In this document: positions 6,081 to 22,057 of the stretch, piece by piece
Numbering within the stretch: the first letter of the stretch is position 1
Layout of the letters: each line of letters begins with the position of its first letter
Origin: a virus
IMG/VR virus record: IMGVR_UViG_3300021963_000721
Span: 1-22,216 of that record
Direction: 5' to 3' (one strand)
DNA: 22,216 nucleotides
Notes under the pieces: generated by a model
What the model was told of the DNA's origin: nothing
The model's database searches: none
Seen by the model: only the letters and a program-made list of their open reading frames with translations
Program-made: the position numbers and the translations under genes

Positions 6081-7541
6081 TCACTCACTGATGATCTTGC
6101 TGTAATATTTACCAGCAATATCGCGAGCACGTTCCAGCGCATGTGAATCCAAATATCCCCAGGTCATTGTGTCAATTTCCGCTTTGGTAAAACCCAAAGC
6201 CCTTGCACCACTGACATCCCATCCTGCTACCAATTTCTTTTCTGCCGTGGCACGATTGTTGGCCAGTGCAATTTTGGTGACATAATCAAAATCAATGTCA
6301 TTGATGGCCCAGTTAACAATGTTGTTTCGTTGACCGCCAGGTAGCACTGAATAGCCGTAGCTTTCTGGATTTTTGTCCATGTCGCTGGCAGCATCGCTGT
6401 TTTCAACATTGTGTATGTTTAGTGGTACCCAGATCCAGCTTTTGAACACATCTTGATTGTTCATGTACAACATGTCGCGTTCCAGCGTGGCACGTGTGTC
6501 ACCTGGTAGGCCAGCAATCAAACTGGCATGTATGCCTGAGGTTTTGTTGATGCGACTGCATGCTTCTAGCACAGGTTCCACCCAGGAGCTTTTTTTCACA
6601 CGACTACGGCTAATGGGTTCCAGACTTTCTAGGCCAACTGTGCCTCCTTCAAGTCCTGATTCAACCATCATGTCAATCTGCTCGGGCCACTTGACCATGA
6701 GTTCGGGTCGCAGGAATGTGGAGAATGATATATCAAAATCAAGACGCTTGACAGCATTGCCTACTTCTTCTAGCTTGTAAAGGCTGTCATTGTAGGTGTC
6801 ATCCAAGAACATGTAGCTGGTCGTGCCAAAGTGTTCGTGATTGTAGCGCAGTTCTTCCAGTAACAAATCTGCAGGCCGCACATAGTCGTTTTTGGTTTTA
6901 CCGTTCAGTTGAAAGCTACAAAATGCGCACTTGAAAATACAACCACGGGATATTTCTATTGGCAGCGGCTCCCATGACTCTATATAGTCTTCGGGCAAAA
7001 ATCGTGTGTTTAGGCGATCCATTGTGTCACCTGCAGAGCCCGGAGGACAGGAAACTATCTGTGTACCATTTTCTACCAGGCGCTCAAATTTCAATCCAAA
7101 TGTTGGTTTGCCGTGCACGTGTGCCAGAAGATCTGGCCAAATGCGATCGCTGTAGCCTTTGACATGATAATCAAACAGGTGCTGTGTTTGCACCATGCCC
7201 GAACCTGGACCACCCAGTACCAGTTTTACATGTGGCCAGCGTGTGTGCACACGATCAAAGAATTCTTCACTCAGTATGGCAGGCAATTGACCCCAATGCC
7301 AGGGTTGCCAAAATGTTGCACTAACACCAATCAACTTTGTGTCAGCAGTCACAAACTTCTCCAGGACCTGCATGGCACGATTAACATCGAGGCTCCAAGC
7401 AAAGTCTAGCACACGTGTATTGTATCCTCTTTCTTCGGCGGCACTGCGTAGGCGATAGGCCGCGTGACCACGAGCACCGCGATATCGATTGTATGCTCTA
7501 CTAACAAGTCCTGCAAATATAACAGCGTGATATTTTTTCAT
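6081..7541 (-). CDS. Radical SAM enzyme with B12-binding-like N-terminal domain
   Basis: A 486-residue protein. The ATG at 7541-7539 is preferred over a TTG 39 bases upstream because a GAGAAAG purine run lies just before it. Residues 1-150 form an alternating alpha/beta Rossmann-like region (for example K-L-I-G-V-S-A-T-F-W and V-K-L-V-L-G-G-P-G-S-G) typical of B12-binding radical SAM proteins. I see no D-x-H-x-x-G cobalamin motif, so cofactor binding is doubtful. The cluster motif C-I-F-K-C-A-F-C gives C201, C205 and C208, and G-L-E-S-L-E-P at 303-309 matches the SAM-contact strand. The C-terminal 100 residues are helical. It should cleave S-adenosylmethionine and modify an unknown substrate, perhaps with its one-base-spaced neighbour. 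It uses AGA codons (for example in S-R-A-Y near the N-terminus), unlike the rIIA operon. Confidence 0.85.
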   Translation of the reverse strand: MKKYHAVIFAGLVSRAYNRYRGARGHAAYRLRSAAEERGYNTRVLDFAWSLDVNRAMQVLEKFVTADTKLIGVSATFWQPWHWGQLPAILSEEFFDRVHTRWPHVKLVLGGPGSGMVQTQHLFDYHVKGYSDRIWPDLLAHVHGKPTFGLKFERLVENGTQIVSCPPGSAGDTMDRLNTRFLPEDYIESWEPLPIEISRGCIFKCAFCSFQLNGKTKNDYVRPADLLLEELRYNHEHFGTTSYMFLDDTYNDSLYKLEEVGNAVKRLDFDISFSTFLRPELMVKWPEQIDMMVESGLEGGTVGLESLEPISRSRVKKSSWVEPVLEACSRINKTSGIHASLIAGLPGDTRATLERDMLYMNNQDVFKSWIWVPLNIHNVENSDAASDMDKNPESYGYSVLPGGQRNNIVNWAINDIDFDYVTKIALANNRATAEKKLVAGWDVSGARALGFTKAEIDTMTWGYLDSHALERARDIAGKYYSKIISE

Positions 7542-7557
7542 GTTATCTTTCTCGTGG

Positions 7558-7563
7558 TATTTA
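7558..7563 (-). promoter_or_regulatory. TAAATA late-promoter-like motif for the reverse cassette
   Basis: Read on the reverse strand, AATAAATACC stands 16 bases before the radical SAM ATG, with the GAGAAAG ribosome site in between. The geometry suits a T4-like late promoter (TATAAATA, start about 6 bases downstream). It pairs with an opposite copy at 7600-7605. Confidence 0.45.
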
Positions 7564-7599
7564 TTGGCATGCGTAAACAATCAATAACTCTAGAAACGG

Positions 7600-8196: not shown

Positions 8197-9822
8197 ATGC
8201 CATACCAACCAGAACTAACAGGCTTACCATATGCAATGCAACTCAATCCAGATACTGGATTGCCTGAAATTCGCGTAAGCATTGGCAGCGGAATTGATAT
8301 CACTGGAACAGTAAACATACCTGGCACTGTCACAGTGTCTAGCACACCAGCTGACCCTGTACATTCTCACATCACTGAAGTTGGTACCAGTGGCGTTTTG
8401 ACCACTGCATACTTGCCTGTTGGCGGTACGGTAACTGTACAGGATGGCGGCGGTACATTAACAGTGGATGGTTCTGTTAACATAGGAACCATGCCAGAAG
8501 TCGAAATTAAAAATGACACCGGCAATCCTATAGCCGTCAGCAAAAACAACACAACCAACTCTGAAGCTAATCCAATATTTGTCAAAGGCACCTCAGACAC
8601 CAGTTTCTTTAGTCCCATGCAAAGTGATGCATTTGGAAGACTGCGTGTGAGCAATCCCGAAACACTGTATGACAGTTTCAATACATACCAGGACAACGAA
8701 TCACTCACTGTGTACACTGCCGGAGGCGGCACATCTGCACACGATGCAAATGGTAGTACGGTGTTGATGAGCGTGGGCACTGCCAACGGCGATGAGGTTG
8801 TCAGGGAAACCAGCAAGGTATTTGCATATCAACCTGGCAAGAGTCTTGAAATTTTGCAGACATTTTGTCTATCGCCCGGGCAAACAAATCTGCGCCAGCG
8901 CATAGGTTACTTTGACACATCCAATGGTTTTTATTTGCAGTTGACCAACAGCACTTTGTCTTTTGTGCGCAGATCAAAATCAACAGGATCGGTTACAGAA
9001 TTGGTTGTGAATCAATCCAACTGGAACGTGGACTCTTTGTTGGGGACTGGTCCCAGCGGAAAAACTCTGCAAAAAGACAAAGCGCAAATCATGTTCATTG
9101 ACATTGAATGGTTGGGCGTGGGTTCGGTGCGCATGGGTTTTGTGATTGATGGTGTGTTTTGTCTGGCACATGTTTGGCATCATGCCAACAAAACCGCAGA
9201 CAGCATCAACTATCTCAACACAACTACCACATACATGGGCACAGCATGTTTGCCTTTGAGATCTGAAATTACCAACACAGGCGTTACCACAGCGTCGTCG
9301 GGATTCAGAGTAATTTGTGCCACGGTTATTTCAGAAGGCGGTTATGTCATTAAAGGAAAAGCCAAGACTGGCGGACACGATATTGCATTGCCTTACTCGT
9401 TGGCTTCAGCAAACACATTCTATCCGGTGCTCAGCATAAGGTTAAAAAGCACCCGCCTTGGCGCTATTGTATTGCCAAGAGAGTTTAGTCTTGGGCTAGG
9501 CGCCAATACCACATTTCAATACAAGATATATGCTAGGGCAATAACTTCAGGTGGTACATGGACTGATCCAGGTAGCGACAGTGCGGTTGAATACAAGACC
9601 AATGGGTCGGCTATCTCAAGTGGCACTCTAGTGAGGCAAGGATACATAGTCAGTAGCAATCAGGCCTCTGGTGGTATTTCTCTAGGTGACGTGGGATTCC
9701 TATTCCAGCTGGAAAGAAATACATTCACCAGCACTGCATATGAATTTGTTATTGCCGTGGCCACCACATCAAATACTTCACCCAGTGTATGGTCAGCTAT
9801 TGGCTGGGAAGAAATCACGTAA
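8197..9822 (+). CDS. Structural protein, probable fibre or appendage
   Basis: A 541-residue protein, rich in Thr, Ser, Gly and Val, with almost all-beta character. Residues 34-50 and 76-104 hold short G-T-V-x-V and G-G-T-L-T-V strands like a beta-solenoid or trimeric fibre stem. The segment D-A-F-G-R-L-R-V-S-N-P-E-T-L at 144-157 is a recurrent landmark of structural proteins in marine and freshwater tailed phages. The C-terminal 370 residues look like a jelly-roll or receptor-binding head. It lacks the capsid-targeting-like leader of its neighbours, as expected for an external protein. AGAGG at 8186-8190 supports the start. It could be a tail fibre, a head fibre or a decoration protein. Confidence 0.7.
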   Translation: MPYQPELTGLPYAMQLNPDTGLPEIRVSIGSGIDITGTVNIPGTVTVSSTPADPVHSHITEVGTSGVLTTAYLPVGGTVTVQDGGGTLTVDGSVNIGTMPEVEIKNDTGNPIAVSKNNTTNSEANPIFVKGTSDTSFFSPMQSDAFGRLRVSNPETLYDSFNTYQDNESLTVYTAGGGTSAHDANGSTVLMSVGTANGDEVVRETSKVFAYQPGKSLEILQTFCLSPGQTNLRQRIGYFDTSNGFYLQLTNSTLSFVRRSKSTGSVTELVVNQSNWNVDSLLGTGPSGKTLQKDKAQIMFIDIEWLGVGSVRMGFVIDGVFCLAHVWHHANKTADSINYLNTTTTYMGTACLPLRSEITNTGVTTASSGFRVICATVISEGGYVIKGKAKTGGHDIALPYSLASANTFYPVLSIRLKSTRLGAIVLPREFSLGLGANTTFQYKIYARAITSGGTWTDPGSDSAVEYKTNGSAISSGTLVRQGYIVSSNQASGGISLGDVGFLFQLERNTFTSTAYEFVIAVATTSNTSPSVWSAIGWEEIT

Positions 9823-9833
9823 AAGGAAACAAC

Positions 9834-10526
9834 ATGAGATTCGCACAAATTGTAATGGAAGGTGGCAACGTGTTCAAAAATGAACTGGCCACTGTGGACG
9901 TTAAACAAGCCGACGTAGCACCAACTATCCAATTTCTCAGTGGAATTGTAGGTGAAGATCTTACCGACGAGTGGCTCGGCAGCACAGGACAGAAAGCAGT
10001 AAGTGGAGACATTGACCTCAGCATGGACGCCAATGCCATTACCAAAGACGAACTGGTAGCAAAGCTCAGTGCCTGGGTCAAAGGCCACGGTGGAGATCCC
10101 AAGAACTATGTAAAGAAGTCGGGCGTTAGTGTGCATTTCCGTACTCCTATCGCTGGAGATCCCAACCAAGGCTTTGTACAAACAGATTTCATGTTTTTAC
10201 CAGATGTACAGTTAAGCAAGTTCAGCATGCGAGCTGATCCTGCCAGCAAGTTCAAAGACAGCCACAAGCACATCGTTCTGTCCAGCGTGGCCAAGCATCA
10301 TGGACTCAAGTGGAGCCCCACAGTGGGATTGATCAGCAGGACCACAGACAAGCTGTTGACCAAAGACCCAGATGAGATTGCAACCATGCTATTGGGGGCA
10401 AGCGCCACACGCAAAGACATTACCAGCGTGGAATCCATCGTACGCAAACTAGCCAACAATCCAGAAGGACAGTCTGCATTGCAAGATGCAAGAGATACAT
10501 TAGGACGCGAAGGTATTAGCATATGA
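9834..10526 (+). CDS. Nucleotidyltransferase-fold protein with capsid-targeting-like N-terminus
   Basis: A 230-residue product. The ATG at 9834 is chosen over 9789 because AAAAGGAAAC lies just upstream and because it exposes the shared leader M-R-F-A-Q-I-V-M-E-G-G, a V-M-E|G cleavage-like site at residue 9. The nucleotidyltransferase signature is present: G-S at 49-50, S-G-D-I-D-L (D59 and D61), and a third acidic residue in Q-T-D-F-M-F (D118). Such folds transfer NMP groups to proteins, RNA or small molecules; the substrate is unknown. The C-terminus is helical. It overlaps the next gene by ATGA. I infer it is packaged in the head and injected, by analogy with T4 Alt. Confidence 0.65.
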   Translation: MRFAQIVMEGGNVFKNELATVDVKQADVAPTIQFLSGIVGEDLTDEWLGSTGQKAVSGDIDLSMDANAITKDELVAKLSAWVKGHGGDPKNYVKKSGVSVHFRTPIAGDPNQGFVQTDFMFLPDVQLSKFSMRADPASKFKDSHKHIVLSSVAKHHGLKWSPTVGLISRTTDKLLTKDPDEIATMLLGASATRKDITSVESIVRKLANNPEGQSALQDARDTLGREGISI

Positions 10527-11908: not shown

Positions 11909-12952
11909 ATGAAGATACACGAAATCATACTAGAAGGAGGCTGGGACTCTACTGTTACACAAAATACAAAGATCACACCAGATGTGGTAAAACGTGCGTT
12001 GAGTGTGGTACAGCGTTTTACCAGCGACTTCAACATATATCTAAAGAAAGTGGGCATGCCTGCTGTGCAGATGGGACACCCAACTGGTTCCAGTGCGCAT
12101 CATGAAATTGACACAAGAGAAGATCCAGGCAAAGTATACGGCGACATTGACCTGCAGATGATCGCACCTGTGGCTGGCGAAGTCAAAACACATAGCCAAT
12201 ACCAAGGCGCATGGAACAAAGCGTCAGATGATTTTATTGCGACCACAAAGCCAGATTATATACACTACGAAGGCAAGCCAGCAAACGGTCATATCATTTT
12301 CGCCATTGGTGCTGATGCATACGTACAAGTGGACATGCTGTGGGCTCAGCCAGAAAATGCAGACTGGGCTCGCTATCGTACAACACCTGAGCGTGGTATC
12401 AAAGGAACCATCTACGGAAACCTTTACAGCAGCCTAGGCGAGATCATGGACATGAGCGTACAGCATGCTGGTGTGCAAATGAAGATACTTGATGATCAAC
12501 CCGTTAACTTCCAACGTGGACGCAAGTTCGATCGCATTGCCACATTGAGCAAAGACATTTCTAACTTTGGTATGGATGTGCTCACCAATCTATACCGAAT
12601 GATACACCCAGACCTTGCACCCGGTGACATGGTGATTGATCCTGAGCTACGTGCACATCCTGGTCTAAACAAAGAAAAGCCAGCAGTGGCAGACTTGGTT
12701 GCCATGATCCGAGGCTTGGCCAATAGCTTTGAAGCCAACGACATGTATGGTCGTTTCAATCTCAAAAACTTCACCAACGCACAGGATTTTGTTGCCAAGT
12801 TCCTACAGCACTATGAAGGCAAGGCGGCTGAAGCCATGGCTGCTACCAAATTTGACAAAGCAGAAACACCTGATGCCAAAGCACGTGCACAGGATGCCAA
12901 AGACAAACTGGCACAGGGTGTACAGCTGATAAGAAAATTATTCCAACAATAA
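11909..12952 (+). CDS. Second nucleotidyltransferase-fold protein with capsid-targeting-like N-terminus
   Basis: A 347-residue protein beginning M-K-I-H-E-I-I-L-E-G-G, the clearest copy of the shared leader, with I-L-E|G cleavage-like site at residue 9. The NTase pattern is G-S-S at 60-62, V-Y-G-D-I-D-L (D79, D81) and Y-V-Q-V-D-M-L-W (D142). The insert H-H-E-I-D-T-R between G-S and D-x-D is longer than in the 9834 product, so the two are not simple duplicates. The C-terminus (about 285-347) is Ala/Lys-rich and helical. AGGATAA before the ATG overlaps the preceding stop region. The reaction would be NMP transfer, target unknown. Related proteins appear in uncultured tailed phages; packaging is my inference. 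Confidence 0.65.
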   Translation: MKIHEIILEGGWDSTVTQNTKITPDVVKRALSVVQRFTSDFNIYLKKVGMPAVQMGHPTGSSAHHEIDTREDPGKVYGDIDLQMIAPVAGEVKTHSQYQGAWNKASDDFIATTKPDYIHYEGKPANGHIIFAIGADAYVQVDMLWAQPENADWARYRTTPERGIKGTIYGNLYSSLGEIMDMSVQHAGVQMKILDDQPVNFQRGRKFDRIATLSKDISNFGMDVLTNLYRMIHPDLAPGDMVIDPELRAHPGLNKEKPAVADLVAMIRGLANSFEANDMYGRFNLKNFTNAQDFVAKFLQHYEGKAAEAMAATKFDKAETPDAKARAQDAKDKLAQGVQLIRKLFQQ

Positions 12953-12965
12953 GAAAGAATTGCTT

Positions 12966-13778
12966 ATGAAAAAAATATTGCTTGTGTTAATGCTTGGTAT
13001 GTCTACTGCGGCGCTGTCTGCTGAACAAAAGCCTCCATTGCCACCACAAGCATGTGCTGTTCATGTGCCATACGGTGTTCCACAAATTGCCAGACCCAAC
13101 AATGTGCAAATTTGTCGTACCGGATACTTTTTGCAACACGATGCCGCACTGAAAATTCCCGTTTGGGTGTCGTGGTCATTGACCCCTGAGCATGTGAATG
13201 GCTGTGTGGAACGTAGCAATGCATTTCAACCGGATCAAAGCATTCCTCGTGGCAGTCGCGCAGAAATGGTAGATTATGCAGGATCCGGCTATGATATCGG
13301 TCACGTGGCTCCTAATGGAGATCAGGGCTGGGATCCACAGGTAGAACGTGAAAGTTTTTATCTCAGCAACATGATGCCACAACTGCCAGGGCTGAATCGC
13401 GGAATATGGAAACTGCTGGAAACCAGCACACGCGGCTGGGCCGCCCAGCGTGGCAATACACTGATTGTGCATGCTGGCCCCATATACGATGAGCGCACCA
13501 ACAAGCGCATTGGGCCAAACAAAGTCATCATCGCTGATGCATTTTACAAGATTGTGATTGACAGCAAAACTGGTGAAACTCTAGCGTTCATGTTCCCGCA
13601 TCAGGGCGGATTAGGCAATGATTTAAGCAAATTCCAAGTCACTGTAAATGACATAGAGCAGTTGACTGGTATACGTTTTGCAGTACCGCGCAACATGCCA
13701 AAAGATCGTGTATTGCCCTTATGGCCTGTTAATTTCAAGGCCATAACTGACAGTAAACGTGCTGCCTGCAAAAGATAA
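12966..13778 (+). CDS. Secreted DNA/RNA non-specific endonuclease (NUC1/Serratia nuclease type)
   Basis: A 270-residue precursor; the ATG at 12966 is preferred over a TTG at 12960 because it yields a standard signal peptide, M-K-K then a hydrophobic core, ending A-L-S-A before E20. The beta-beta-alpha metal nuclease motif follows: Y-D-I-G-H (H113 general base), then F-Y-L-S-N-M-M-P-Q (N135 metal ligand), then L-N-R-G-I-W-K-L-L-E (N144, W148, E152). The usual D-R-G-H Arg is Ile here. Four or more cysteines (30, 50, 80 and near the C-terminus) suit a periplasmic disulfide protein. It would degrade DNA and RNA in the periplasm or outside the cell, so it may block incoming phage DNA or digest released host DNA. 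It sits among virion genes but has a Sec signal instead of the head-type leader. Confidence 0.85.
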   Translation: MKKILLVLMLGMSTAALSAEQKPPLPPQACAVHVPYGVPQIARPNNVQICRTGYFLQHDAALKIPVWVSWSLTPEHVNGCVERSNAFQPDQSIPRGSRAEMVDYAGSGYDIGHVAPNGDQGWDPQVERESFYLSNMMPQLPGLNRGIWKLLETSTRGWAAQRGNTLIVHAGPIYDERTNKRIGPNKVIIADAFYKIVIDSKTGETLAFMFPHQGGLGNDLSKFQVTVNDIEQLTGIRFAVPRNMPKDRVLPLWPVNFKAITDSKRAACKR

Positions 13779-13809: not shown

Positions 13810-14355
13810 ATGCGCATAACAGACATCATCAACGAAGACGGGGAAGCATCAAGCACACTGAGCAACAGCGTTGCCACCGTGGCTTTTCCGCTGTTTGGCG
13901 ACCAAAAAATGATACGCAGAGCAGTTGACCCCAAAGGTTATCTAAGCAAGAAGAAAAAGCCCCGGGTCACAGAAGCAGAGATGCATGCAGATAATGTGAT
14001 ATATCGACTAGATGCTGAAAATCCAATGGACGACAGCGAAATACTTGTTATAGGTGGTGCAGGCCGTTACAGCCTCAAAGGGCTACGTGCCAAGGCTAGA
14101 AAAGAAGCCGCTCAACTAGCACAAGATTTGCAAAGCGATCACGGCCAAAGTTTCCGTGGTGGCGCATACAATGTTAATCAATTGGCCAACACGCTGAAAA
14201 CAATCGTGGCAGCATATGATCAACTGAACAAGATTCGCAGTAAAGGCGGCACTAAGGCCCGCGGAATAAGAAACGAAGACAAAGCCCTGATCGACGAATG
14301 CATGAACATTGCCGAGCAGTGGACAACCAAATTCAAATCCAAGGTGACACAATGA
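13810..14355 (+). CDS. Probable internal virion protein with capsid-targeting-like N-terminus
   Basis: A 181-residue protein starting M-R-I-T-D-I-I-N-E-D-G, so I-N-E|D at residue 9 matches the cleavage pattern. The rest is basic and helical. A K-K-K-K-P-R run at about 47-53 is followed by a possible second site, V-T-E|A (about 54-56). After it come A-E-M-H-A-D-N-V-I-Y-R-L and long amphipathic helices (about 95-181) with many Lys, Ala and Gln. No enzyme family is recognised. There is no clear Shine-Dalgarno before the ATG, and the conserved leader decides the start. It ends in an ATGA overlap with the 824-residue protein. The basic composition would suit a DNA-associated head protein. Confidence 0.6.
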   Translation: MRITDIINEDGEASSTLSNSVATVAFPLFGDQKMIRRAVDPKGYLSKKKKPRVTEAEMHADNVIYRLDAENPMDDSEILVIGGAGRYSLKGLRAKARKEAAQLAQDLQSDHGQSFRGGAYNVNQLANTLKTIVAAYDQLNKIRSKGGTKARGIRNEDKALIDECMNIAEQWTTKFKSKVTQ

Positions 14356-16826
14356 AAATCAACCAACTAGGCCAAGTAGCCGAAGCCAAGATGAAATGCA
14401 ACGAAACCCCAGCTGGAGAAGCATGTCCAGTACACGGGCTTAAAGAATGCTCAGGGTACAGCATGACAGAAGTTGCTGAATCATTTACCATTCAACGAGG
14501 CAATAAATTTTTGCTGGGCGGTAAATCATGGGTCAGCAAAGAAGAAGTAGAAAAGCAAAAGTTTTTACTTTATCGACACAAGTCTATGGCACAGCAGGTG
14601 TTAGATAAAATTGGCAAGCCAGGTGATAAAATTGTTGCCATTGGCGGGGTAGCGGAAGCACGTACCGAAATCAAAGACAAAGAAGGCAAAGTTACAAGTT
14701 GGAAAGATGAAGGCGACTGGAAAAAGTCCACTGCCAAGAAAGATCCACGTGGTAAAGTTACCAACATGAGTGACAAAGCACGTCGTGAAACTGAAAAGTT
14801 ATCCAAAAATGAAAGCCTTAAAGAAGCTCACATCCTCAGCATGCATGTGGAAGACGACCACGAAGTAAAGATGGCGCAAGGCGATCTATATCAGATGGCC
14901 AAGAAAACAATCGCATTGCACAAGATGTTGGACAATGTTGATCAGCTGGAAGGTTGGGTACAAGGCAAAGTCACATTGGCAGCAGATTACATTGCCACAG
15001 TGTATGATTACATGGATCATCAGCTGGCCATGGCAGGCAACATTGATGGCATTGGTGAACAGATGGCCGAAGCCATCATGCCAACTGGTTCAACTGTGAG
15101 TGCAAAAAAGTTACCACCCCAAACAGCTCAAATTGTCAAGAAAGTTGCGCAGGGATTGAATCCATCACAAAATGCAGTGATGACTGACCCCGACGGAAAT
15201 GTATCTGTTGTGGCCAAGAAAGATGTGGCCAAGAAGAACGCACAAGGCAACATGCAAGTAACCGAAGATGATGGCCCAGCCGGACAATACAAAAGCCTAA
15301 ACGATGCATATCCAGCTGGTTCAACAGAGGTATGGTATTGGAAAGAAGATTTTGCCCGAGACGCAATGATGGGTGCCAATTGGCTGGCCAAGAAAGGTCT
15401 CATGCCCAAGCCAGAAAACATCAGCGACAACTACGTGTTGATTGGCAAAATTGCAGAAACCAATCCTGAAAAAGTTTACATGATGATGCAGGGTGAAATG
15501 TGGAGTCCACGTGGGCAGGCACGTAACATGATCCGTTCCAGCGGCACTGGCCACACTTCAATGAGCATGGGCGACATTGTGAAAATTGGCAACAAATACA
15601 TGATGGTTGACCGTTTTGGATTCCATGACATCACACAACAGCCACAAGAAGAAAGCGTCAAGGTGCAATTAAAGGCCAGGCCAGTAGAAGAAAGTGTCAT
15701 GAGCGAAATTGATGCAGAGCTTTCTGCGATTGCCAAGACTCAAGATATGGATGCATTATATGATTTGCTAACTGCCAACACACCTACCGGCAAGTATGTA
15801 CAAAACATGGCAGACGATATTGCAATCGATAATCGATTCCTTGACGACGATCATGAACAGCTACTAGACAATTTGATGGATCGAATTGTTGATGACTTTG
15901 GCATAGACGAATCACTCAAAGAAGATCTACAAGCAGACAGTGGTGAATACTATCAAGATTCAGCAGATTTCTTTGGACAATTTGAAGCAGATCACTTTGA
16001 CAAAGAAGAAACAAGTGACGACGGAATGGATGTACACGGTTATATCGATGGTAAACTTGTGATGGCATGGAGATTCAATGGCCCCGACAAGACAGACGGG
16101 TATGGCGCTTATGATGATTCAGAACTAGGCGAATCAACATTTGCTGATGCTGGTGCCACACTAGGCAGCACACTGGGTGCCGCAGGTGGATTTGCTCTCA
16201 CTAAAAAGAAAAGCGGTTATGCCGCAGGCGCCGCAGTGGGTTCAGCAGTAGGAGCCACTGCTGGCAAGTGGCTGGACAAGAAACTGGGCAACAAGCCCAA
16301 GGATGAAAAAGAAGTCAAGGAAGCAGATCAACCCGAAGCTGACGGCAACGAAAATGGCATCTATCAAATGCGCAAGGTAATCAACCTGCGCGGTCAATAT
16401 GATGTGCCTTTTGCTGATGGCAAGAAAGTGCGTGTTCCTGTAAACATGGCTCATGCAGTGTTGCAGAAGTTTGCCAGCATGAAGATGCCTGCAGACAAAC
16501 TGGCGTTCACTCGTGCAGTGACCAAGAGCTTTGATTCACTCAAAGCCGCAGTTGGTGTGAGAGAAGATGTTGATGCACGTGCCCGGAAGATATTTGGCGA
16601 AGACTGGGGTTCAAGCGACACATCGGCTGCCATCAACATGATGAAAGATTATATCCGTTCAAATCATGATGGAAAATACAACCCAGAAACAATTGAAGCG
16701 GCTGCACGAGATGCAGGAGAGTTCTATTACGAAGACATGGGATATGATACACCGGAAGAGGCAGCCGACAGTTTGGTCAGCCACTTTGTACGTCGTTGGA
16801 TGAGCGGTAGCCTAAAGGCTGATTAA
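14352..16826 (+). CDS. Modular 824-residue putative internal-head polyprotein
   Basis: The start at 14352 (ATGA overlap) exposes M-K-I-N-Q-L-G-Q-V-A-E|A. Motifs of type hydrophobic-x-E-[A/S/D] then recur at E43, E102, E158, E240, E305, E447, E520, E594, E657 and E738, each next to a change in character. The pieces are: a Cys/His module (C-N-E-T-P, C-P-V-H-G-L-K-E-C; 12-43); a small domain with R-G-N-K-F-L-L-G-G (44-102); a Lys-rich linker (103-158); a helical D-H-E-V-K-M-A-Q-G-D-L-Y module (159-240) known to me from T4-like phage proteins; a Lys/Ala stretch (241-305); a domain with V-W-Y-W-K-E-D-F (306-447); two acidic modules (448-594); a glycine-zipper segment (595-657); and two helical modules (658-824). 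T4 gp21 cuts prohead proteins after [L/I]-x-E. I infer a polyprotein processed in the head; a linear scaffold-like core protein is the alternative. Confidence 0.65.
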   Translation: MKINQLGQVAEAKMKCNETPAGEACPVHGLKECSGYSMTEVAESFTIQRGNKFLLGGKSWVSKEEVEKQKFLLYRHKSMAQQVLDKIGKPGDKIVAIGGVAEARTEIKDKEGKVTSWKDEGDWKKSTAKKDPRGKVTNMSDKARRETEKLSKNESLKEAHILSMHVEDDHEVKMAQGDLYQMAKKTIALHKMLDNVDQLEGWVQGKVTLAADYIATVYDYMDHQLAMAGNIDGIGEQMAEAIMPTGSTVSAKKLPPQTAQIVKKVAQGLNPSQNAVMTDPDGNVSVVAKKDVAKKNAQGNMQVTEDDGPAGQYKSLNDAYPAGSTEVWYWKEDFARDAMMGANWLAKKGLMPKPENISDNYVLIGKIAETNPEKVYMMMQGEMWSPRGQARNMIRSSGTGHTSMSMGDIVKIGNKYMMVDRFGFHDITQQPQEESVKVQLKARPVEESVMSEIDAELSAIAKTQDMDALYDLLTANTPTGKYVQNMADDIAIDNRFLDDDHEQLLDNLMDRIVDDFGIDESLKEDLQADSGEYYQDSADFFGQFEADHFDKEETSDDGMDVHGYIDGKLVMAWRFNGPDKTDGYGAYDDSELGESTFADAGATLGSTLGAAGGFALTKKKSGYAAGAAVGSAVGATAGKWLDKKLGNKPKDEKEVKEADQPEADGNENGIYQMRKVINLRGQYDVPFADGKKVRVPVNMAHAVLQKFASMKMPADKLAFTRAVTKSFDSLKAAVGVREDVDARARKIFGEDWGSSDTSAAINMMKDYIRSNHDGKYNPETIEAAARDAGEFYYEDMGYDTPEEAADSLVSHFVRRWMSGSLKAD

Positions 16827-16838
16827 GGGAACAACAAA

Positions 16839-18569
16839 ATGCGTGTGCATGACTTTTTTGAAAGCAAGATCAAGGGCGCCGACGGCAAAGCCTGTTGGAA
16901 AGGCTATCGCTATAATGGCACTAAGGATGGAAAAGATTCTTGTGTAAAAGTTGATGAGGCTCGCGCCGACGTTAACTTTGATGCTGAAGATCTCAAGCGG
17001 CTAGAACGCATCAATGACTTAGAAACACTAAAGACACAGGCATTTGGCCTGATCAGCAAACCCAGTGCTAAACCAATGAAGCCTGAAAAGGTAGCATGGT
17101 TCAAGCAGGCGCTGGCCAGTAAGTCAAACAAGATTGCTGTGATCAAGATGATGTATGATCTCATGCTGAGTGGTGAAGGCAATTCTGTTATTGGAAGCAA
17201 AAACAGCATGAACCCCAACAGCTATCGCAAGGTATTCAATTCGGCTACCATGGAAAGTGCAGAAAGTCTTAGCATAGGAGATGATGTTATCATCACCGGT
17301 AATGTTGAGTTCAATGGCAAGACTGGCGTAATTGATTCGTTTGGAAAAGACAAGCGTTTTGTTGTTGTGAATCTATACAATCATGGTAGACATAGCTTCC
17401 ATAGCAGTGATGTAAGCGTCAATGACTACGCAGACAGTGATGAAGAAGAATCTCGCATGTCAGAAGCATATCAAAATGATGAAGCAAATCTTTGGTACAT
17501 CTATGATAAAACTGATGGCCGTCTCAAACAAAAGATGATTGCCAATCTTGACGAACCACGTGCTCGTAGCATGGGTTATAGAGACAGCATAGATGCCGCG
17601 CTTCGTGTGGCCAATATCATCCGTAGCAAGTTTGATGCCAAAAAGTTTGTACAGAAGCAAGGCAACCAGTGGGTGCCTGTTTATCCTTTTGGCAAACCTG
17701 GCATGTCTGAAACAGCCATGGATCCTCGCTTGCAGAAATACATAGACAATAATCCCGAAGAAGTGTCTGACTCAATCGACACGCTGAGAGATCGGGCCAA
17801 TGCCGAAGGTGGCAGATTCAAGTGGGCGATTGGCAAATTGCCAGATGGACGATTTGTATTAGGTCTACAAGGCAACATTAAAATGCTAGGATTACCAATC
17901 GTTGATCAAGGCATAAGCGAAGCAAGTAGTCCAGCAAAAGGCTCACAGCGAGTTGATTCACTTGTCACCAAGGGATTAAAAATAATGCGCGGTCCAACAT
18001 GGTTGGATGCTGTGGCCGCAATAAAATATCAAGTTGGAGAAAGAGATTACAGAGAGCGTAAACAGTTTTATGATTTCTTTGTTAAACAACTGGTGGACAT
18101 GTATGGTAAAAAGGATGTGGCGGAAGGTGCAGAACAAATGACGCCAAATTGGGCCAAGTATGTGCTTGACCAAATTTACAACAGCAACGGTGCAGTTACT
18201 CTAACTGATCTATTTGATGAAGGCATCCCTGGACTACATGACATGTTTATGGCAACTGCACAAAAACATGGATTTGATCCTGAAGAAGATTTTGAAGATG
18301 TTCAACATGAACTAACATTAGAATTAGAAGACTTGATCAAAGGCGGTCATGACATGGACGAGGCTTACAGCAGTCCTCCTCCTTTCAAAGACATGATCGC
18401 ATCCGTCTACCAACCCAAAGTAGGCGACAAGATTCGCACACGCAAGGGCGGGCAGATTCCAGGCACAGTAGAAAAGGTTGGAGAAGTCAATGGCATTGAC
18501 TACTGCTGGTTTCGCCACCCCGAAGGCAAGTTGTACAAAACTCCATGTAGCAATGTAATGCGAGGTTAA
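16839..18569 (+). CDS. Modular 576-residue putative internal-head polyprotein
   Basis: AAGGGA (16825-16830) precedes the ATG. The protein opens M-R-V-H-D-F-F-E|S, and cleavage-like sites follow at E40 (V-D-E|A), E142 (S-A-E|S), E209 (M-S-E|A), E291 (M-S-E|T), E361 (I-S-E|A), E429 (V-A-E|G) and E508 (M-D-E|A), mostly 65-85 residues apart. The pieces are: a short Cys module K-A-C-W-K-G-Y ending D-S-C-V-K-V (9-40) seen widely in marine phage proteins; a helical module (41-142); a KOW/SH3-like module with G-D-D-V-I-I-T-G-N-V (143-209); an alpha/beta module (210-291); modules at 292-361 and 362-429; an acidic helical module (430-508); and a terminal SH3-like module with V-G-D-K-I-R-T and H-P-E-G-K-L-Y-K-T (509-576). 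It has no catalytic signature. With its neighbour it looks like a set of small head-packaged proteins made as one chain. Confidence 0.65.
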   Translation: MRVHDFFESKIKGADGKACWKGYRYNGTKDGKDSCVKVDEARADVNFDAEDLKRLERINDLETLKTQAFGLISKPSAKPMKPEKVAWFKQALASKSNKIAVIKMMYDLMLSGEGNSVIGSKNSMNPNSYRKVFNSATMESAESLSIGDDVIITGNVEFNGKTGVIDSFGKDKRFVVVNLYNHGRHSFHSSDVSVNDYADSDEEESRMSEAYQNDEANLWYIYDKTDGRLKQKMIANLDEPRARSMGYRDSIDAALRVANIIRSKFDAKKFVQKQGNQWVPVYPFGKPGMSETAMDPRLQKYIDNNPEEVSDSIDTLRDRANAEGGRFKWAIGKLPDGRFVLGLQGNIKMLGLPIVDQGISEASSPAKGSQRVDSLVTKGLKIMRGPTWLDAVAAIKYQVGERDYRERKQFYDFFVKQLVDMYGKKDVAEGAEQMTPNWAKYVLDQIYNSNGAVTLTDLFDEGIPGLHDMFMATAQKHGFDPEEDFEDVQHELTLELEDLIKGGHDMDEAYSSPPPFKDMIASVYQPKVGDKIRTRKGGQIPGTVEKVGEVNGIDYCWFRHPEGKLYKTPCSNVMRG

Positions 18570-20992: not shown

Positions 20993-21430
20993 GTGGAAGA
21001 ACTAGTAATTGCCCTCAAAAAAGTATTGGCCAATACCTATGCGTTTGGCCTAAAAACACAGAACTATCATTGGAACGTCACTGGTCCCGATTTCAAACAG
21101 TATCACGATTTGTTTGGTGATATCTATCAAGAAGTTTATGGCAGCATTGATACACTGGGCGAAGAAATTCGTGCGCTAGGTGATTTTGCACCTGCTAGCT
21201 TTGCACGGTTTGGTCAACTGTCTGACATTGAAGACGAACTCAAGGTACCTGTAGCCATAGTCATGTTTGAAAGACTAATTGCTGACAACGAAAAAGTATT
21301 GGCATCAATTGAATCAGCATATGAATTAGCTGAAGTACAACACAAACACGGCCTGAGTAACATCCTGGCAGAGCGTCAAGATGCGCATGCCAAGCATGCA
21401 TGGATGCTGTCAGCAACAGCAAAAAGATAA
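20993..21430 (+). CDS. dps: Dps-like ferritin (DNA-protection/iron-storage protein)
   Basis: A 145-residue protein, GTG start at 20993 with AAGGGG (20981-20986) six bases before. The Dps core is clear: N-Y-H-W-N-V-T-G-P-D-F at 24-34, H-D-L-F at 38-41, and S-I-D-T-L-G-E-E-I at 51-59. H26, H38, D53 and E57 have the spacing (12, 15, 4) of the inter-subunit ferroxidase ligands of Dps proteins such as that of Listeria. So it should oxidise Fe(II) with peroxide and may store iron or bind DNA as a dodecamer. There is no long Lys-rich N-terminal tail, so DNA binding is less certain. Placement between a membrane peptide and the endolysin, rather than among host-takeover genes, is unexpected. Confidence 0.85.
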   Translation: MEELVIALKKVLANTYAFGLKTQNYHWNVTGPDFKQYHDLFGDIYQEVYGSIDTLGEEIRALGDFAPASFARFGQLSDIEDELKVPVAIVMFERLIADNEKVLASIESAYELAEVQHKHGLSNILAERQDAHAKHAWMLSATAKR

Positions 21431-21442
21431 CAAGGAACAGAC

Positions 21443-22057
21443 ATGATTGAACTAGCAACACTACAGGCTTGCTTTCCGCAAACCAAACCCGATCGAGTAG
21501 AATATTTCCACGAAGGTATTTGCCAAACATTTGAAGTGTTTGAAATCAACACACCTCCACGTATGGCAGCATTTCTAGCCCAGTGCGGTCATGAAAGTGG
21601 TGGTCTCCGTTTGACAGAAGAAAATCTCAACTACAAAGCAGATGCTCTCACAAGATTGTGGCCCAAGCGTTTTCCACCTGACGTGGCTGCTCGTTATGCT
21701 CGCAATCCAGAAATGATTGCCAACAGAGCCTACTGCGACAGAATGGGCAATGGGCCAGAATCCAGCGGCGAAGGTTGGGCCTATAGAGGTCGCGGCTTGA
21801 TCCAATTGACTGGCAAAGCCAATTACACCGCTTGCTCTGATGCATTGGGTATTGACCTAGTGAGCGAGCCCGATCTGGTAGCACAGAACCCAGTTGCAGT
21901 ATTATCAGCTGGTTGGTTCTGGGACACCAATCGATTAAATGCCTTGGCCGATGCTGAAGATATCTTGACAATGACCAAGAAGATCAACGGCGGCACAATT
22001 GGACTGGATGATCGCATCAAACATTTCGAACACATGAAGCACGTTCTGGGCGCATAA
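21443..22057 (+). CDS. GH19-type endolysin (chitinase-like lysozyme)
   Basis: A 204-residue single-domain protein, AAGGAA at 21432-21437 before the ATG. The GH19 features are in order: F-L-A-Q-C-G-H-E-S-G-G at 44-54 with catalytic E51 and a second acid at E59/E60, then G-W-A-Y-R-G-R-G-L-I-Q-L-T-G at 111-124, and K-K-I-N-G-G near residue 178-183. Phage and prophage members hydrolyse peptidoglycan glycan strands at lysis. No signal peptide or N-terminal membrane anchor is present, so release needs a holin, and no wall-binding domain is attached, as usual for Gram-negative hosts. It ends the forward block; the gap behind it has a new promoter. Confidence 0.85.
   Translation: MIELATLQACFPQTKPDRVEYFHEGICQTFEVFEINTPPRMAAFLAQCGHESGGLRLTEENLNYKADALTRLWPKRFPPDVAARYARNPEMIANRAYCDRMGNGPESSGEGWAYRGRGLIQLTGKANYTACSDALGIDLVSEPDLVAQNPVAVLSAGWFWDTNRLNALADAEDILTMTKKINGGTIGLDDRIKHFEHMKHVLGA

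Follow-up and report, generated by a model that had tools for sequence, protein, structure and literature searches.

A probable polyprotein of internal head proteins in a T4-type phage, with prohead protease-type motifs at the borders of its modules

Within a 22,216-base virus fragment from IMG/VR (the window), the open reading frame at 14352-16826 (+) encodes an 824-residue, 90.8-kDa protein, P, that we consider likely to be a capsid-targeted polyprotein, cleaved by the prohead protease to yield small cargo proteins inside the head. Cleavage, the protease responsible, location in the virion and any role in the host are inferences. What we observed in the family to which P belongs are a modular architecture, junctions of a specific kind, mosaic evolution and changes in module order. 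One criterion for a polyprotein is fulfilled, in that a protease-type motif (hydrophobic-x-Glu, hereafter hxE) is conserved at the borders between independent units and absent inside them, and P holds several different domains in one polypeptide.

Protein P and its modules

The window encodes rIIA and rIIB and is a fragment of a large, uncultured T4-type phage; its close relatives have a T4-type DNA polymerase that, among isolates, comes closest to those of Sinorhizobium phage Phosso (49%) and Agrobacterium phage Atu_ph07 (47%). Elsewhere it encodes a secreted-type non-specific endonuclease (12960-13778; PF01223), a Dps/ferritin-like protein (20993-21430; PF00210, E 3e-21), a GH19 endolysin-like protein (21443-22057; PF00182) and, judged by eye only, a radical-SAM-like protein (6081-7580, - strand). 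The start of the P reading frame is suited by an AAGGTGA ribosome-binding site, and the frame overlaps the one upstream by four bases (ATGA), an arrangement conserved in 4 of 4 close relatives. Homologues of P were found on four related contigs (L001, L002, L003 and L125).

A preliminary description of this DNA had named ten sites in P with a hydrophobic residue two positions before a Glu, and all ten are where it placed them: VAE/S at E43, VAE/A at E102, LKE/A at E158, MAE/A at E240, VTE/D at E305, VEE/S at E447, IDE/S at E520, LGE/S at E594, VKE/A at E657 and VRE/D at E738 (the slash marks the putative cut). Two more lie beyond these ten: VAE/A at E11 closes a leader of 11 residues, and a deletion boundary coincides with E434. 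By number alone the motif is weak evidence, at about twice chance: hxE[AGS] occurs 11 times in P against 5.7 expected (P value 0.024), with no enrichment of hxD, hxK or hxQ decoys in the same test. If this modest excess were all there was, P could be an ordinary multi-domain phage protein whose Glu-rich linkers match the motif by coincidence, but comparisons made independently with homologues and with another module (A5, below; 42 contexts) already speak strongly against that, and we give it almost no credence. Two or three further matches (E23, E803, E369) are probably not junctions, E369 sitting inside a confidently predicted fold, so the motif alone is insufficient to define a site. It is position and not number that raises the sites of P far above chance, as they coincide with module borders in homologues and in the wider family.

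All modules of P lie on the + strand. The leader, MKINQLGQVAE/A (14352-14384), ends at junction E11 and is near-invariant in five homologues; it is a possible capsid-targeting sequence (CTS), with only a loose resemblance to the T4 CTS MKTYQEFIAE/A. Next comes a Cys/His knuckle of the form CxxxxxGxxCPxHGxxEC (residues 12-43, 14385-14480), similar to knuckles in L204 and in S-SM2 gene 109, and its closing junction, E43, borders a block that is swapped in L001-L003. That block is the basic module 44-102 (14481-14657, junction E102), in whose place these three homologues have an unrelated Cys-rich module (CSQCGKGF); the same basic module recurs in L105, directly adjoining the 658-738 module. The Lys-rich module 103-158 (14658-14825) ends at E158 and is followed by the DHEV helical module 159-240 (14826-15071, junction E240), the basic module 241-305 (15072-15266, junction E305) and module 306-447 (15267-15692, junctions E434 and E447), which contains the fold 306-434. 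Of two acidic modules, 448-520 is helical (15693-15911, junction E520) and 521-594 (15912-16133, junction E594) is also present in unrelated reading frames of L115, L107, L104 and L118. The glycine zipper 595-657 (16134-16322, junction E657; PF13488, E 6.5e-6) is retained in five of five homologues, module 658-738 (16323-16565, junction E738) occurs in 16 proteins, and the C-terminal module 739-824 (16566-16823) is conserved in five of five homologues. The knuckle, Lys-rich linkers, DHEV module, acidic modules and glycine zipper had all been correctly described beforehand, and the earlier proposal that the sites fall at or near borders of distinct modules was borne out by comparison with homologues and the wider family.

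Searches of Pfam, PHROGs, PDB sequences and PDB folds for module functions gave nothing useful apart from the glycine zipper, which was the only Pfam hit in P; no enzymatic, DNA-binding or peptidase domain was detected by Pfam, and the PDB sequence search matched Utp8 at E 0.0098. None of the modules of P is known to act on the host.

When the whole chain was modelled with AlphaFold2, the prediction was poor (mean pLDDT 52.5, pTM 0.26), with separate confident islands at residues 320-429, 451-518 and 755-818. The earlier description had held that its reading would be refuted if structure prediction buried the motifs in folded domains; this was not the case, with nine of the ten sites at pLDDT below 50 and E447 at an edge, but the test is weak because 58% of residues in P have pLDDT below 50. 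Folded by itself, module 306-434 (15276-15653) was well predicted (pLDDT 82.7, pTM 0.77), and while its fold had no match in the PDB, it has stand-alone structural relatives of 109-136 residues (E down to 3.7e-5) in giant viruses (Fadolivirus, mimivirus) and the haloarchaeal virus HCTV-1. The good prediction in isolation and the stand-alone relatives suggest that this module probably folds alone as an independent unit.

Module exchange at the junctions

It had been predicted that module order should vary among homologues while the junction motif stays, and we found loss, gain, swapping and reordering of modules at the junctions. Besides the swapped block described above, the segment E520-E594 is cleanly absent in L002 and L003, where IDE/S...LGE/STF has become VDE/STF. 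L125 lacks E43-E158, its flanking junction there being VKE/G, and E447-E594, and carries at E305 an additional module of 77 residues; the window has the homologue of this module between junctions of a neighbouring polyprotein, Q. Among 31 inserts in P and two neighbours, compared across four relatives, 36 of the 62 boundaries lay within 5 residues of hxE[AGS] as compared to 7.1 expected, whereas decoys stood at 6 vs 6.3 (hxD), 3 vs 3.0 (hxK), 2 vs 5.3 (hxA) and 7 vs 2.8 (hxQ). These counts were drawn from related pairs, and the events are not independent. HSP ends also fell near sites in 36% and 44% of cases, against 16% by chance. DNA-level recombination sites were considered as a cause of the junctions and rejected, as the peptide motif is conserved across differing DNA (VAEA is encoded by 8 different 12-mers among 9), which indicates that selection acts on the protein.

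The idea that P is a polyprotein is thus supported by comparison but was too narrow as first put, for P is one of several adjacent polyproteins in a widespread family. Protein Q (16839-18569, +; 576 residues) has the leader MRVHDFFE/S and junctions at VDE40, MSE209, ISE361, VAE429, MDE508 and others, with 7 hxE[AGS] matches against 3.2 expected (P value 0.036). Its relatives in L001-L003, of 560, 293 and 384 residues, differ by gain and loss of modules at junctions, and L125 has a different version of 186 residues. Upstream of P, protein R (13810-14355, +; leader MRITDIINE/D) exists in the window in a single-module form; its lengths are 181, 181, 282 and 384 residues, the longer versions in L002 (282) and L003 (384) arising through added modules at VSE, VKE and MTE junctions. 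The leaders of Q and R fit the T4 CTS pattern well, in contrast to the loose fit of the P leader. Two other proteins of the window (9789-10526 and 11909-12952) combine a nucleotidyltransferase-like GDIDL motif with T4-CTS-like leaders (MKIHEIILE/G; MRFSQIIMEGG in the L125 homologue), and may possibly be further head cargo.

Profile searches showed that five of the eleven P modules recur in non-orthologous long reading frames. The DHEV module turned up in 20 proteins with many different architectures; it is also present in the cyanophage genes S-WAM2 170, S-SM2 109 and one of S-RIM8, and in two copies in gp079 of the cultured Flavobacterium phage immuto (L264, 1571-4096), an 841-residue hypothetical protein. 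Module 306-434, present at 27 viral loci in many contexts, precedes 658-738 in P and follows it in L112, L113 and L114, and it lies ahead of the DHEV module in L155. Large relatives of up to 285 kb, found via their polymerase, have polyproteins encoded side by side in clusters, the longest reaching 1493 residues.

Further evidence on site position came from A5, a 60-residue module of relatives that is not in P and occurs at 534 viral loci. In 42 distinct contexts a junction lay within 10 residues upstream in 31 (74%) and within 10 residues downstream in 29 (69%), against a null of 16% on either side, and only 1 site fell inside A5 where 44 were expected. Neighbouring groups were at least 20 upstream and at least 22 downstream, and none of the K, Q, N, A and G decoys was enriched on both sides in these contexts. 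A search of hosts found no A5 in bacterial or archaeal genomes.

These observations bear on whether P is cut at all. Injection is established for polyvalent proteins, some of which are packaged unprocessed (PMC5512222), and domain mosaicism by itself needs no cleavage; P might accordingly be a multi-domain injected protein of that sort, delivered whole and working as one chain, its hxE linkers no more than flexible joints that tolerate recombination. The joints seen here are, however, specific for Glu, preceded at two positions' distance by a hydrophobic residue and followed by Ala, Gly or Ser, and decoys with D, K, Q, N, A or G in place of the Glu show no enrichment on both sides. The same motif occurs in the gp23 propeptides and gp22 of relatives, export-type signals directly follow junctions in some relatives, and Pfam detected neither enzymatic nor peptidase domains. 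We therefore regard an uncut P as unlikely.

Several polyproteins of relatives have such signals. In L112 (7420-10050, - strand) a Tat-like signal at residues 157-175 stands directly after a junction (TAT_signal in Pfam at E 1.9e-4, narrowly short of the curated threshold), and Tat-like or Sec-like signals following junctions were also seen in L112 (10047-12164), L113 (9690-12356), L115 (13140-14846), L117 (13370-14860) and L119 (3684-8165), all on the - strand, the Sec-like stretches being judged by eye. At such positions cleavage would expose the signals as new N-termini, and perhaps they send cargo to the periplasm. A Pfam scan of ten related polyproteins revealed no enzymatic, DNA-binding or peptidase domains. 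One module of the 1493-residue polyprotein (L119, 3684-8165, - strand; residues 352-413) matches KVP40.0154, a stand-alone protein of 83 residues in KVP40-like Vibrio phages.

In cultured cyanophages, the gene between gp16 and gp17 (S-SM2 gene 109, 708 residues, L265 2201-4327; also L266-L271) is a mosaic of small Lys/Cys-rich modules, among which DHEV, CWKGY and CPVHG have counterparts in the window's P and Q, and it is possibly a polyprotein of the same kind. Other cultured phages with a relative are S-RIM8, ACG-2014f and Synechococcus phage Syn9 (gp114). Sequence similar to S-SM2 gene 109 was present in 502 records, only 5 of them with coverage of at least 80%. The hxE motif is less enriched in these cultured relatives (S-SM2, z 1.1; immuto, z 0.1), so the outcome of a test on them would not be settled in advance. 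Since cultured cyanophages and a Flavobacterium phage carry relatives that share modules, the polyprotein idea can be tested.

The prohead protease and the fate of the pieces

In T4 the prohead protease gp21 cuts after L/I-x-E (PMC9026906), Alt being cut at ITE-6 and LTE-619 (PMC5694885), and gp245 of SPN3US cuts after A-X-E (PMC10052503). The 22-kb fragment contains neither gp21 nor gp23, and a search of the window's own record with the HK97-type family PF04586 found no protease; gp21 (Peptidase_S77) was found only in relatives. In all nine large relatives that have gp23 the two co-occur, and vice versa, and the gp23 propeptides of relatives have conserved sites of L-x-E type (LLE/S, LLE/G, YLxE/[NTSA]). 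That gp21 is the protease that cuts P is therefore an indirect inference, drawn from relatives and without cleavage data. When the proteins of the 285-kb relative are ranked by excess of the motif, those leading the list include two polyproteins, the scaffold gp22, gp21 itself and a single repetitive protein; with the eight most motif-rich proteins removed, the remainder has 225 matches vs 201 expected. The repetitive protein (1284 residues; G002:C1:105283-109137, in L134), probably fibre-like, has the largest excess of all, 13 against 1.6 expected.

A P that is cut in the prohead might still be something other than cargo. The T4 core proteins gp22, gp67 and gp68 have many L/I-x-E sites at which they are cleaved, and most of the resulting material is lost (PMC9026906); P might likewise be a core or scaffold protein whose pieces are shredded to free space and for the most part leave the head. 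The relatives, however, already own separate gp22, gp67-like and gp68-like genes in their head operon, and P lies elsewhere, not in the gp22-type position upstream of gp23. Shredded scaffold would also need no intact folded modules, while the sites here avoid module interiors (as with A5), and the modules are diverse, individually conserved, in some cases stand-alone in other viruses, and swapped in a mosaic manner like T-even internal proteins. A scaffold role consequently appears to us quite improbable. That P is cargo rather than waste scaffold remains an inference with nothing direct behind it; it rests on the conservation of modules, the exclusion of sites from them, their stand-alone relatives, export-type signals after junctions, and exchange resembling the mosaic exchange described for T-even internal proteins (PMC3012670).

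If P is a cargo polyprotein, its N-terminal leader, alone or with partners, would carry the chain into the prohead core, where a gp21-type protease would cut after Glu at hydrophobic-x-Glu/small sites at the time of gp23 trimming and gp22 shredding. The predicted products are the leader of 11 residues and some 11 small proteins (32-142 residues, 3-16 kDa). These differ in charge, basic and acidic ones both being present, and include a zinc-knuckle-like protein and one with a glycine zipper; they would remain in the head with the DNA and probably be ejected into the host. As each junction has a cut site of its own, the loss, replacement or transfer of one module from polyprotein to polyprotein would leave the rest unharmed.

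Relation to known systems and implications

One close likeness is to T4 IPI, IPII, IPIII and Alt, which have a CTS that gp21 cuts after hxE; the cut-site motif is shared, and CTS-like leaders (MRITDIINE, MRVHDFFE, MKIHEIILE) occur in the window. T4 internal proteins and P modules are both small, often basic and hypervariable, but in T4 each internal protein has its own gene, whereas P joins about 11 in one chain with internal sites, and we found no sequence homology of P to the T4 proteins. Several cuts per chain at Glu motifs of the prohead protease are also made in T4 gp22 and core proteins and in the propeptides of SPN3US and phiKZ (A-X-E or S-X-E); there the pieces are scaffold or propeptide remnants, while the putative cuts in P fall between conserved, exchangeable modules. 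Polyvalent proteins (Iyer et al. 2017, PMC5512222) are likewise multi-domain, shuffled and thought to be injected, and proteolytic processing has been proposed for them. That processing is ascribed to internal zincin-like or assemblin-like peptidase domains, of which none was found in P, its motif pointing instead to a separate prohead protease, and prohead-protease junctions are not described in that work. The polyproteins of RNA viruses and retroviruses also place viral protease sites between the products of one chain, but they deliver a fixed essential set, in contrast to the exchangeable accessories that P modules represent in an unrelated dsDNA tailed phage.

We found no description of a cargo polyprotein in a phage, in a literature search from which most subscription journals and preprints were outside the scope; matches to "polyprotein" in phages concerned only a DNA polymerase fusion or concatenated sequences. 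Within the literature searched, a cargo polyprotein cut in the head thus appears to be new for tailed phages.

If this is true, polyprotein processing, known from RNA viruses, would join the ways in which tailed phages load cargo proteins. It would account for the long mosaic "hypothetical" genes of large T4-type phages, as illustrated by a single module at 534 viral loci, and would supply a rule, cleavage after hydrophobic-x-Glu when a small residue follows, by which the likely mature proteins of such genes could be told apart and hundreds of candidate injected proteins would become searchable. It would also suggest a natural way for a single gene to supply a phage head with several foreign proteins at once. 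More broadly, we lean towards the view, with some reserve, that T4-type phages run exchangeable cargo cassettes, that is, polyproteins made up of arrays of small host-takeover proteins, which one leader brings into the prohead and which are cut by the maturation protease and between which site-flanked modules move, and that such cassettes are widespread in environmental phages.
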